From positions 1 to 64,000 of IMG/VR virus record IMGVR_UViG_3300027972_000007: DNA of 64,000 nt; one strand, written 5' to 3'. The stretch's first letter is position 1, and every line of letters starts with the position of its first letter. The stretch comes from a virus. Shown here piece after piece: positions 57,280-61,151 of the stretch. Below the pieces are notes generated by a model. That model ran no database searches and was not told where the DNA came from. It saw nothing but the letters and a program-made list of their open reading frames with translations. A program made the position numbers and the translations under genes.

Positions 57280-57361
57280 TGACGAGTAGTCTAATGGCAA
57301 GACAGCAGGCTGTTAACCTGCCGCAGAATAATCTGTTTGGAGGTTCGAATCCTCTCTCGTC
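57280..57361 (+). tRNA. Class II tRNA with Asn anticodon GUU
   Basis: Acceptor TGACGAG/CTCGTCA, anticodon arm GCAGG-CTGTTAA-CCTGC (GUU), then a 17-base variable region with stem CAGA/TCTG, T arm GGAGG-TTCGAAT-CCTCT, base 73 = G, no encoded CCA. Long variable arm plus G73 is the serine pattern, whereas the anticodon is asparagine. Identity is therefore uncertain. Confidence 0.75.
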
Positions 57362-57374
57362 AGCTAAATTATAT

Positions 57375-57873: not shown

Positions 57874-57948
57874 GGGTCATAACAGTCGGACGGGCGAGTT
57901 TCCTTTGCAAGGAAATTTTGATGGGTGGAACTCCCATATGATCCACCA
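57874..57948 (+). tRNA. tRNA-Ala (UGC)
   Basis: Acceptor GGGTCAT/ATGATCC, anticodon loop TTTGCAA in TTTCC/GGAAA, CCA encoded. The T loop is TGGAACT instead of TTCRANT, and the acceptor lacks the usual G3-U70 (G3-U70 here pairs G with T, present). Confidence 0.82.
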
Positions 57949-58036: not shown

Positions 58037-58053
58037 ACAGGTTCAACTCCTGT
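58037..58053 (+). pseudogene. tRNA T-arm relic
   Basis: ACAGG-TTCAACT-CCTGT is a perfect T arm without the remaining cloverleaf. It lies in the 44-base gap after tRNA-Gly and looks like the tail of a deleted tRNA gene. Confidence 0.65.
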
Positions 58054-58074: not shown

Positions 58075-58174
58075 ACGTCTGTAGCTCAACGAATAGAGCG
58101 CTTGGTCACGAACCAAGGACTTCTCAGCCACGAACTGAGGACTTGTGAGGGTTTGAATCCTTCCAGACGTACCA
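58075..58174 (+). tRNA. tRNA-Arg (ACG) with tandem anticodon arms
   Basis: Acceptor ACGTCTG/CAGACGT, D arm GCTC/GAGC, T arm GAGGG-TTTGAAT-CCTTC, CCA encoded. Instead of one anticodon arm there are two 22-base units in tandem: CTTGG-TCACGAA-CCAAG (58101-58117) and CTCAG-CCACGAA-CTGAG (58123-58139), each followed by GACTT. Both loops read ACG and both have C rather than U at position 33. Removing one unit gives a normal 78-base tRNA. Confidence 0.82.
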
Positions 58175-58438: not shown

Positions 58439-58528
58439 GGGCAGGAGGTCAGATATCGGTTGGCTGCACCAGACTGTAAATCTGGATTCTGTAATAGAAC
58501 GTGGAAGGTTCAACTCCTTCTCTGCCCA
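58439..58528 (+). tRNA. tRNA-Tyr (GUA)
   Basis: Class II as normal for bacterial Tyr. Anticodon loop CTGTAAA in CCAGA/TCTGG, acceptor GGGCAGG/TCTGCCC, A73, no CCA. Confidence 0.9.
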
Positions 58529-58902: not shown

Positions 58903-59493
58903 ATGTTACAGACACTGGAATTAAATAAAGCATCAGTTCCTGTTGGAATTATATCTGCTAAAAGAGCATTAATAGCAGTATGTAATAAAAGAGCTATTGC
59001 TTTAGCAAATTATGATAAAGTTTATCATTCATCGGATTATATATGCATGGATTTGAATTTAGTAAAAGGAAAGAATTCATTAATATCAATTCCTATTCCA
59101 TCAGTCATACGATTTATTGATTCTGATTTCATGCCAAAAAGATATACAAATATTTTACCATTTAATCGCATGAATGTGTATATAAGAGATAGTGGAACTT
59201 GTTGTTATTGTGGTAAAAAAGTATCCATAAGTAATTTTACTTTTGATCATGTTATACCAAGGGCTGATGGAGGAAAAAGCTGTTGGGAAAATGTTGTGGT
59301 GAGTTGTGTAAAATGCAATAATCAAAAGGATAGAATTCCATTACATAAATTTTCAAAGAAACTTATAAAAAAACCATATGTACCACATTTAACGAAAGCA
59401 GCACCAGAACATTTAGTAAGTAGAATAGCAATGGAAATACCACATGAAACATGGTTAGATTATATTTACTGGAGAATAGAATTAGAAGAGTAA
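58903..59493 (+). CDS. HNH endonuclease (free-standing homing type)
   Basis: 196 residues from ATG 58903 (AAGAAGGACG upstream); the longer frame from 58864 runs through the tRNA-Arg. Zinc-bound HNH: CCYCGKK (near 101), then FDHVIPRADGGKSCWENVV and CVKCNNQK. The N-terminal part resembles the HNH proteins of the RRXRR-like/cyanobacterial type. It sits between tRNA genes, typical for a selfish homing nuclease. Confidence 0.87.
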   Translation: MLQTLELNKASVPVGIISAKRALIAVCNKRAIALANYDKVYHSSDYICMDLNLVKGKNSLISIPIPSVIRFIDSDFMPKRYTNILPFNRMNVYIRDSGTCCYCGKKVSISNFTFDHVIPRADGGKSCWENVVVSCVKCNNQKDRIPLHKFSKKLIKKPYVPHLTKAAPEHLVSRIAMEIPHETWLDYIYWRIELEE

Positions 59494-59900: not shown

Positions 59901-61151
59901 ATGAGATTGGTTTATAAATTCAACTTTACTGATACTTCAGATTATTTGAATAATCTTTGTATTATTTCAAAGAATTTATATAATCAGGCCAATTATTTGA
60001 TTAAACAAGAATTAAATACTAATAAAAAGTGGTTACGTTATAATGATTTAGATAAAATAATGAAAGTAACTAAAAATCTTGAAAGTAATATTAATTATAG
60101 ATTACTTAAATCTCATGTTGCTCAACAATGTTTAAAGTTATTAGATAAAAATTGGTCGTCTTTTTTTATGTCAATTAAATGTTGGAAAGCAAATAAAGAT
60201 AATTATAAGGGTATGCCCAAATCACCTTATTATCTTAAAAAAGATAAGAATTTATTAATATATACTAATCAAGTTTCTAAAATAAAAGATAATAAAATTT
60301 ATCTTTCTAAAGATTTTACTATAGATATACCTAAGTATAAAGATTTTAGTAAATTTCAACAGATAAGAGTATTACCTACATATATCAAAAATCAATTTGA
60401 AGTAGAGATAATTTATAATCAAGACATAAAGAATGAAAATCTGAATTATGATAAGTATTCTTCTATTGATTTAGGATTAAATAATTTGGTGTCTTTAGTT
60501 TCCGAAAACAAACCAATATTAATTAATGGAAATATACTTAAATCATATAATCAATTATACAATAAACAAAAAGCTAAATTATATTCAGTTAAAGATAAAA
60601 TGAAGAATAAACATTACACAAGGAGACTATATGAGTTAGAAAAGAATAGAAATAATTACGTCAAAGATTATTTACACAAAGTTTCAAGATTAATGATTAA
60701 TTATTTAATTAAGAATAAGATTGGTAATTTAGTTATAGGTCACAATAAACAATGGAAAGACTCCATTAATATAGGGCATAAAAATAACCAGGCTTTTGTT
60801 ACTATTCCTCATTCACAATTAATTAATTATTTAACATATAAATCTGAACTTTGTGGTATTAAGGTGCAAGAAGTTGAAGAGAGTTATACATCTAAATGTG
60901 ATTCTTTAGCTAATGAAACTATAGAAAAACATGAAGTATATTTAGGAAAAAGAATAAAAAGAGGATTATTTCAAAGTTCGTCAAGAAAATTAATTAATGC
61001 AGATGTTAATGGAGCTTTGAATATAATGAGAAAAGTAGTTGGTAATTCTTATGCAAATAAGATAATCAATAGTGGGTTCTTGTTTAACCCAGTAAAGATA
61101 AGGAATCTGTTTTCAAACTCTTTGCAAACTTGTTTATTAAAGATAACATGA
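59901..61151 (+). CDS. TnpB-like RNA-guided nuclease family protein (OrfB)
   Basis: 416 residues. RuvC residues: D190 in SSIDLGLNNL, E326 or E327 in QEVEESYTSKC, D368 in INADVNGALNI. The zinc-finger region between has one Cys (SKCDSLANETIEKHEVYLGKRIKRGLF) instead of two CxxC pairs, a variant known in some OrfB lineages. No TnpA gene is near. The stop is only 19 bases from tRNA-Gln, leaving no normal transposon right end. Likely a domesticated or homing TnpB in the tRNA cluster. Confidence 0.85.
   Translation: MRLVYKFNFTDTSDYLNNLCIISKNLYNQANYLIKQELNTNKKWLRYNDLDKIMKVTKNLESNINYRLLKSHVAQQCLKLLDKNWSSFFMSIKCWKANKDNYKGMPKSPYYLKKDKNLLIYTNQVSKIKDNKIYLSKDFTIDIPKYKDFSKFQQIRVLPTYIKNQFEVEIIYNQDIKNENLNYDKYSSIDLGLNNLVSLVSENKPILINGNILKSYNQLYNKQKAKLYSVKDKMKNKHYTRRLYELEKNRNNYVKDYLHKVSRLMINYLIKNKIGNLVIGHNKQWKDSINIGHKNNQAFVTIPHSQLINYLTYKSELCGIKVQEVEESYTSKCDSLANETIEKHEVYLGKRIKRGLFQSSSRKLINADVNGALNIMRKVVGNSYANKIINSGFLFNPVKIRNLFSNSLQTCLLKIT

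Follow-up and report, generated by a model that had tools for sequence, protein, structure and literature searches.

A tRNA-Arg(ACG) gene with two tandem anticodon arms in a distant T4-like phage

The window analysed here, a stretch of 64,000 nucleotides, belongs to a 170,170-b IMG/VR record with a GC content of 27.7%. On its forward strand lies a tRNA-Arg(ACG) gene in which one anticodon arm is directly followed by a second. The gene is composed as follows, with the basis of each assignment in brackets:

58075..58174, + strand: entire two-arm tRNA-Arg(ACG) gene, 100 nt including the encoded CCA (sequence, Rfam, folding)
58075..58081, + strand: acceptor stem 5′ strand ACGTCTG, 7/7 paired with CAGACGT at 58164-58170 (sequence, pairing probabilities)
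58084..58099, + strand: D-arm GCTC-AACGAATA-GAGC with A15, G18, A19 and A20 (sequence, Rfam alignment)
58101..58117, + strand: anticodon arm 1, CTTGG-TCACGAA-CCAAG, with C33 and anticodon ACG; likely decoding arm (sequence, fold)
58118..58122, + strand: GACTT spacer, copy 1 (sequence)
58123..58139, + strand: anticodon arm 2, CTCAG-CCACGAA-CTGAG, with C33 and ACG, in variable-arm position (pseudo-anticodon arm) (sequence, fold, Rfam alignment)
58140..58146, + strand: GACTT copy 2 followed by GT, the last T being a possible U48 opposite A15 (sequence; U48 deduced)
58147..58163, + strand: T-arm GAGGG-TTTGAAT-CCTTC, with U56 opposite A19 (sequence, Rfam alignment, pairing probabilities)
58164..58174, + strand: acceptor stem 3′ strand CAGACGT, discriminator A73 and encoded CCA (sequence)

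The core of the molecule is intact. U8 and A9 (TA) separate the acceptor 5′ strand from the D-arm, and the single nucleotide G26 joins the D-stem to arm 1. The tertiary pairs A15-U48 and A19-U56 can form where G15-C48 and G19-C56 are the rule, and the A19/U56 combination can also be read in the tRNA-Arg(TCT) and tRNA-Gly(TCC) of the same cluster. A20, an arginine identity position, and A73 both fit arginine tRNAs. The variable region measures 29 nt and holds arm 2 with its 5-bp stem and 7-nt loop.

Exact parsing of 58075-58174 bears out a preliminary description of this DNA, which had recognised two 22-base units, each with a stem and a 7-base ACG loop, and the absence of U33 from both. Each of the tandem 22-nt units consists of a 5-bp stem with a 7-nt ACG loop followed by GACTT, and position 33 is C in each loop. 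The units are identical at 17/22 positions. Of their five differences, four belong to two stem pairs in which both partners have changed (T-A to C-G and G-C to A-T) and one is at loop position 32, so that the stems indeed differ in a compensating way, as had been noted, and both stay foldable. When five random substitutions were placed in arm 1, every pair was still Watson-Crick and two or more pairs were doubly changed in 0.05% of the trials. Compensated differences of this kind would reflect either a pairing constraint on both hairpins after duplication or the fusion of two separately evolved tRNA-Arg(ACG) genes, a choice that concerns one sequence here. An assembly error as the source of the doubled arm is unlikely because the copies differ at 5/22 positions. 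The tandem-ACG pattern with T-arm occurred in none of 100 shuffles of the window.

Folding is in accordance with this anatomy. All five arms are present in the minimum free energy structure (−33.2 kcal/mol, z −2.2), and the pairing probabilities of both anticodon arms lie between 0.98 and 1.0. Pairing of the 5′ strand of arm 1 with the 3′ strand of arm 2 was 11 kcal/mol worse and had a probability of ~0.

The gene is recognised by the Rfam tRNA model (RF00005) with 47.4 bits at a gathering score of 29, the lowest score among the window's 20 Rfam tRNA hits, and the covariance model accommodates the second unit by an insertion at the variable region. It is thus a cloverleaf by this measure, but it departs from the canonical tRNA, which has one anticodon arm, a class I variable region of 4-5 nt and U33, in having two arms, a variable region of 29 nt and C33 in both loops. 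Default ARAGORN does not report it; removal of either unit leaves a 78-nt tRNA-Arg(ACG) that is called. With a variable region longer than 10 nt and a paired stem (predicted pairing about 1.0) it resembles class II tRNAs, yet it does not share their Leu, Ser or Tyr identity, as both anticodons are ACG and the single-arm versions are called tRNA-Arg. Its 7-bp acceptor stem and 5-bp T-stem set it apart from allo-tRNA- or tRNASec-like molecules (8/4 or 9/3), taken here as those with an acceptor stem of 8 or 9 bp and a short T-stem of 3-4 bp.

The record derives from a distant T4-like phage, as judged by a terminase ~36% identical to those of cyanomyoviruses, a sheath protein (28%) and the presence of baseplate genes, and the viral origin assumed by the preliminary description thus holds. 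The whole record contains 23 Rfam tRNA hits. Further features of the tRNA cluster and of the record are as follows:

Window 57280-57364: tRNA-Asn(GTT) with a 17-nt variable region and a 4-bp stem, CAGA-ATAA-TCTG, class II-like
Window 57874-57948: aberrant tRNA-Ala(TGC)-like gene with G3-U70, an odd D-arm and the T-loop TGGAACT, read from the sequence
Window 58037-58053: isolated T-arm ACAGG-TTCAACT-CCTGT just upstream of the two-arm gene
Window 58439-58528: tRNA-Tyr(GTA), 33.9 bits in the whole-record Rfam search, missed by ARAGORN
Window 58903-59493: HNH endonuclease ORF inside the tRNA cluster
Window 59901-61151: TnpB/transposase-like ORF between tRNA-Glu and tRNA-Gln
Record 75616-76929, − strand: CCA-adding enzyme, adjoining tRNA-Leu(TAA) (L169 and L297 for this enzyme and the ligase)
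Record 103144-103773, − strand: minimal RNA-ligase-family protein, 209 aa

Neither ARAGORN nor Rfam at the gathering score detected the tRNA-Ala(TGC)-like gene. The isolated T-arm is probably what is left of a tRNA that was lost, and its position directly upstream indicates that tRNA genes decay in this cluster. A scan with the transposase-like ORF found nothing. Given its 23 Rfam hits, CCA-adding enzyme and RNA-ligase-family protein, the phage looks tRNA-dependent; a TadA-like deaminase was not found in it by PF00383. CGN codons are rare but used in the predicted ORFs (CGT 139, CGA 114, CGC 40 and CGG 44 of 44,743 codons, as against 992 AGA), CGT, CGC and CGA together accounting for 293. Among the tRNAs detected in the record there is no other that reads CGN.

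We consider it fairly probable that the locus encodes a genuine phage tRNA-Arg(ACG) in which the anticodon arm and GACTT have been doubled, arm 1 decoding and arm 2 serving as a class II-like variable arm. Maturation would then give a class II-like tRNA-Arg of 100 nt. Arm 1 is taken as the decoding arm because it lies one nucleotide from the D-stem, as in canonical cloverleaves; arm 2, after its 5-nt spacer, would take the place of a variable arm as a stable hairpin, a diverged but foldable, natural pseudo-anticodon arm. Most likely the phage would rely on this tRNA alone to decode CGN, and the host ArgRS would charge it. Arm 2 should at least be tolerated in the manner of class II variable arms and may add a contact to ArgRS. 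Its possible roles, in order of preference, are a tolerated insert, an ArgRS contact and, together with C33, a decoy for or resistance to anticodon nucleases. In favour of this explanation are the complete core, the matched tertiary pairs, the five-arm minimum free energy structure, the compensated pairs and the ordinary tRNAs obtained by deletion of single arms, as well as the tRNA-rich context, the variable arms of phage tRNAs outside Leu, Ser and Tyr and a synthetic precedent (PMC7590224). Against it stand the rarity of C33 in tRNA-Arg(ACG), the lack of long variable regions among 104 phage tRNA-Arg and the decay of nearby tRNA genes; selective maintenance, moreover, would be argued from a single sequence for which no homologue was found. 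The anatomy, that is sequence, predicted pairing, intact core and tRNA-rich context, is firm, whereas function, that is expression, charging, decoding by arm 1 and any role of arm 2, is what we infer.

The two-arm tRNA has so far remained a singleton. The exact tandem-unit pattern had no match in viral contigs, and a pattern search of 2.9 million viral contigs and the genomes of ~85,000 species, collections from which the record's nearest relatives may be missing, revealed no second tandem-ACG tRNA; as the pattern requires two exact copies of ACGAA together with a consensus T-loop, diverged cases would escape it. A looser pattern of tandem ACG and T-arm gave 12 viral and 64 genome matches, none with both stems. 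One match to a C33 pattern with the same stems lay in a tRNA-free contig stretch and was taken as chance. When ~2.3 Mb of fetched DNA were scanned with a descriptor for tandem arms with similar 7-nt loops and any anticodon, only the window tRNA stood out. Terminase searches returned a 21.5-kb fragment, apparently of the same phage and without the tRNA cluster, and, with a profile, only relatives at ~36%. Within the wordings tried, we found no paper on natural tRNAs whose anticodon arm is duplicated.

Extended variable arms as such recur in phage tRNAs outside Leu, Ser and Tyr, namely in those for Ile, Asn, Cys, Trp, Lys, Thr and Glu; variable regions of at least 10 nt occurred in 0/104 phage tRNA-Arg examined. 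A close parallel is tRNA-Ile(UAU), which in several phages carries a variable arm with a 7-nt loop and GAT in anticodon register (CAGATTA, CAGATAA, CCGATTA, CTGATTT), close to the anticodon loop CTGATAA of tRNA-Ile(GAU). Such genes (L190:7585, L205:3104, L212:5527, L216:7128, L299, L300, L301 and L302) are found in phages of Acinetobacter, Stenotrophomonas, Aeromonas and Synechococcus and in uncultured contigs. The loop is mostly CAGATTA and the stems differ between phages. From these sequences the arm is possibly a natural pseudo-anticodon for IleRS, which makes a pseudo-anticodon variable arm plausible as a natural design. Like the window tRNA, tRNA-Ile(UAU) lies outside Leu, Ser and Tyr and bears a cognate-like anticodon in register in its variable-arm loop. 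In contrast to arm 2, however, this arm is not copied from the tRNA's own anticodon arm, and it is recurrent across phages. In Pectobacterium phage My1 (L306, E 0.3), a near-identical hairpin is not part of any recognisable tRNA and may be chance. Elsewhere (L231:4722-4921), ARAGORN called two adjacent 98-nt tRNA-like genes with at least 25 surplus bases in the anticodon loop or close to it, which may be insertions or erroneous calls.

Class II tRNAs for Leu, Ser and Tyr likewise have a paired arm between anticodon arm and T-arm and a 7/5 acceptor branch. The window tRNA differs from them in its Arg(ACG) identity, in its 29-nt variable region and in the nature of the arm, a diverged anticodon-arm copy with a 7-nt ACG loop. 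Engineered tRNAs with a His anticodon arm as variable arm stay translationally active, and their charging can be modestly enhanced if the synthetase carries the matching anticodon-binding domain as a fusion (Mukai 2020, PMC7590224). These molecules share with the window tRNA the use of an anticodon arm as variable arm. They were built on an allo-tRNA (9/3) chassis with a His arm, whereas the window tRNA is natural, a predicted tRNA-Arg of the 7/5 type and known from sequence. Anatomy, folding and the comparison with class II-like phage tRNAs thus agree with the preliminary description, both in its central claim of a tRNA-Arg with two tandem anticodon hairpins and in its suggestion that the second could act as a giant variable arm.

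C33 was found in 29/963 ARAGORN-called tRNAs of the fetched phage loci and in 1/78 tRNA-Arg(ACG), the latter ratio being biased towards U33 because most of these 78 come from loci fetched by a U33 pattern. A fairer comparison is provided by two exact pattern scans with the same D-arm: in viral contigs, the C33 version matched one contig (L175) and the U33 version at least 120. The tRNA-Arg(ACG) of L175 has a single arm whose loop, CCACGAA, is identical to that of arm 2. C33 could weaken the U-turn and the deamination of A34. As it is common to both arms, it is probably older than the duplication. C33 tRNAs seem to be concentrated in certain phages (L175, also L224, L237 and L240). In the tRNA-rich phage contig L175 (2930-6138), 4/24 tRNAs (Pro, Ser, Arg and Leu) carry C33.

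The alternatives to a functional tRNA with a variable arm overlap partly with this explanation. It is possible, though we doubt it, that a functionless extra hairpin remained after a neutral or decaying tandem 22-nt duplication, or after a fusion to which one tRNA-Arg(ACG) gene gave the 5′ part and a diverged paralogue the 3′ part, and that the tRNA may be inactive. The tRNA remnant at 58037-58053 just upstream, the HNH and TnpB-like ORFs, which suggest turnover of the cluster, C33 and the reduced covariance score of 47.4 bits, lowest of the 20 window hits, are consistent with decay, and fusion of two diverged functional genes explains the compensated differences without selection on arm 2. 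However, the core is intact, including the matched tertiary pairs and the encoded CCA, and random divergence rarely (0.05%) keeps all pairs Watson-Crick with two double changes.

A role in counter-defence appears unlikely. By analogy, arm 2 would be a decoy substrate and C33 a resistance change against a host anticodon nuclease. Phage tRNAs have been proposed to evade anticodon nucleases through anticodon-loop changes (PMC10264068); their departure from the loop consensus compares with C33 in the tRNA-rich window phage, but a second anticodon arm, present here, is not described for them. The presence of C33 in both arms, and thus probably before duplication, the same loop CCACGAA in the single-arm tRNA-Arg(ACG) of another tRNA-rich phage contig and the RNA-ligase-family ORF are compatible with such a role. 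On the other hand, a PNK-like AAA_33 domain was not found in the phage, and the decoy function is drawn from analogy.

That the extra 22 nt are an intron or processed spacer, excised to give a one-arm 78-nt tRNA, is very improbable: removal of either unit does yield a normal tRNA-Arg, but terminase, sheath and baseplate mark the phage as a T4-like bacterial virus, the locus matches no Rfam intron family, and the intron mode of ARAGORN produces only an implausible tRNA-Glu, so that the spliced product lacking one hairpin considered in the preliminary description is not borne out. Decoding by both arms is hardly credible, even though both fold with 7-nt ACG loops, since arm 2 follows a 5-nt spacer in variable position and, if this arm stacked on the D-stem, 23 nt would separate that stem from the arm's first pair; the two anticodons proposed earlier exist in the sequence, while the linkers (1 nt versus 5 nt) favour arm 1 alone in decoding position, and identical anticodons would bring no gain in codon range.

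Provided that the RNA is made and charged, two complete anticodon arms would occur together in one natural tRNA. Such a molecule would bear on the limits of cloverleaf extension, on whether a second anticodon loop allows synthetases or anticodon nucleases to be engaged, and on the reason why phages carry near-complete tRNA sets. Tentatively, and as a rather doubtful extension, the variable arm may be a selected second anticodon arm that holds the host ArgRS or absorbs or resists anticodon nucleases, as part of a wider phage habit that includes tRNA-Ile(UAU). In that case, it would represent a natural counterpart of the engineered tRNAs with pseudo-anticodon variable arms.
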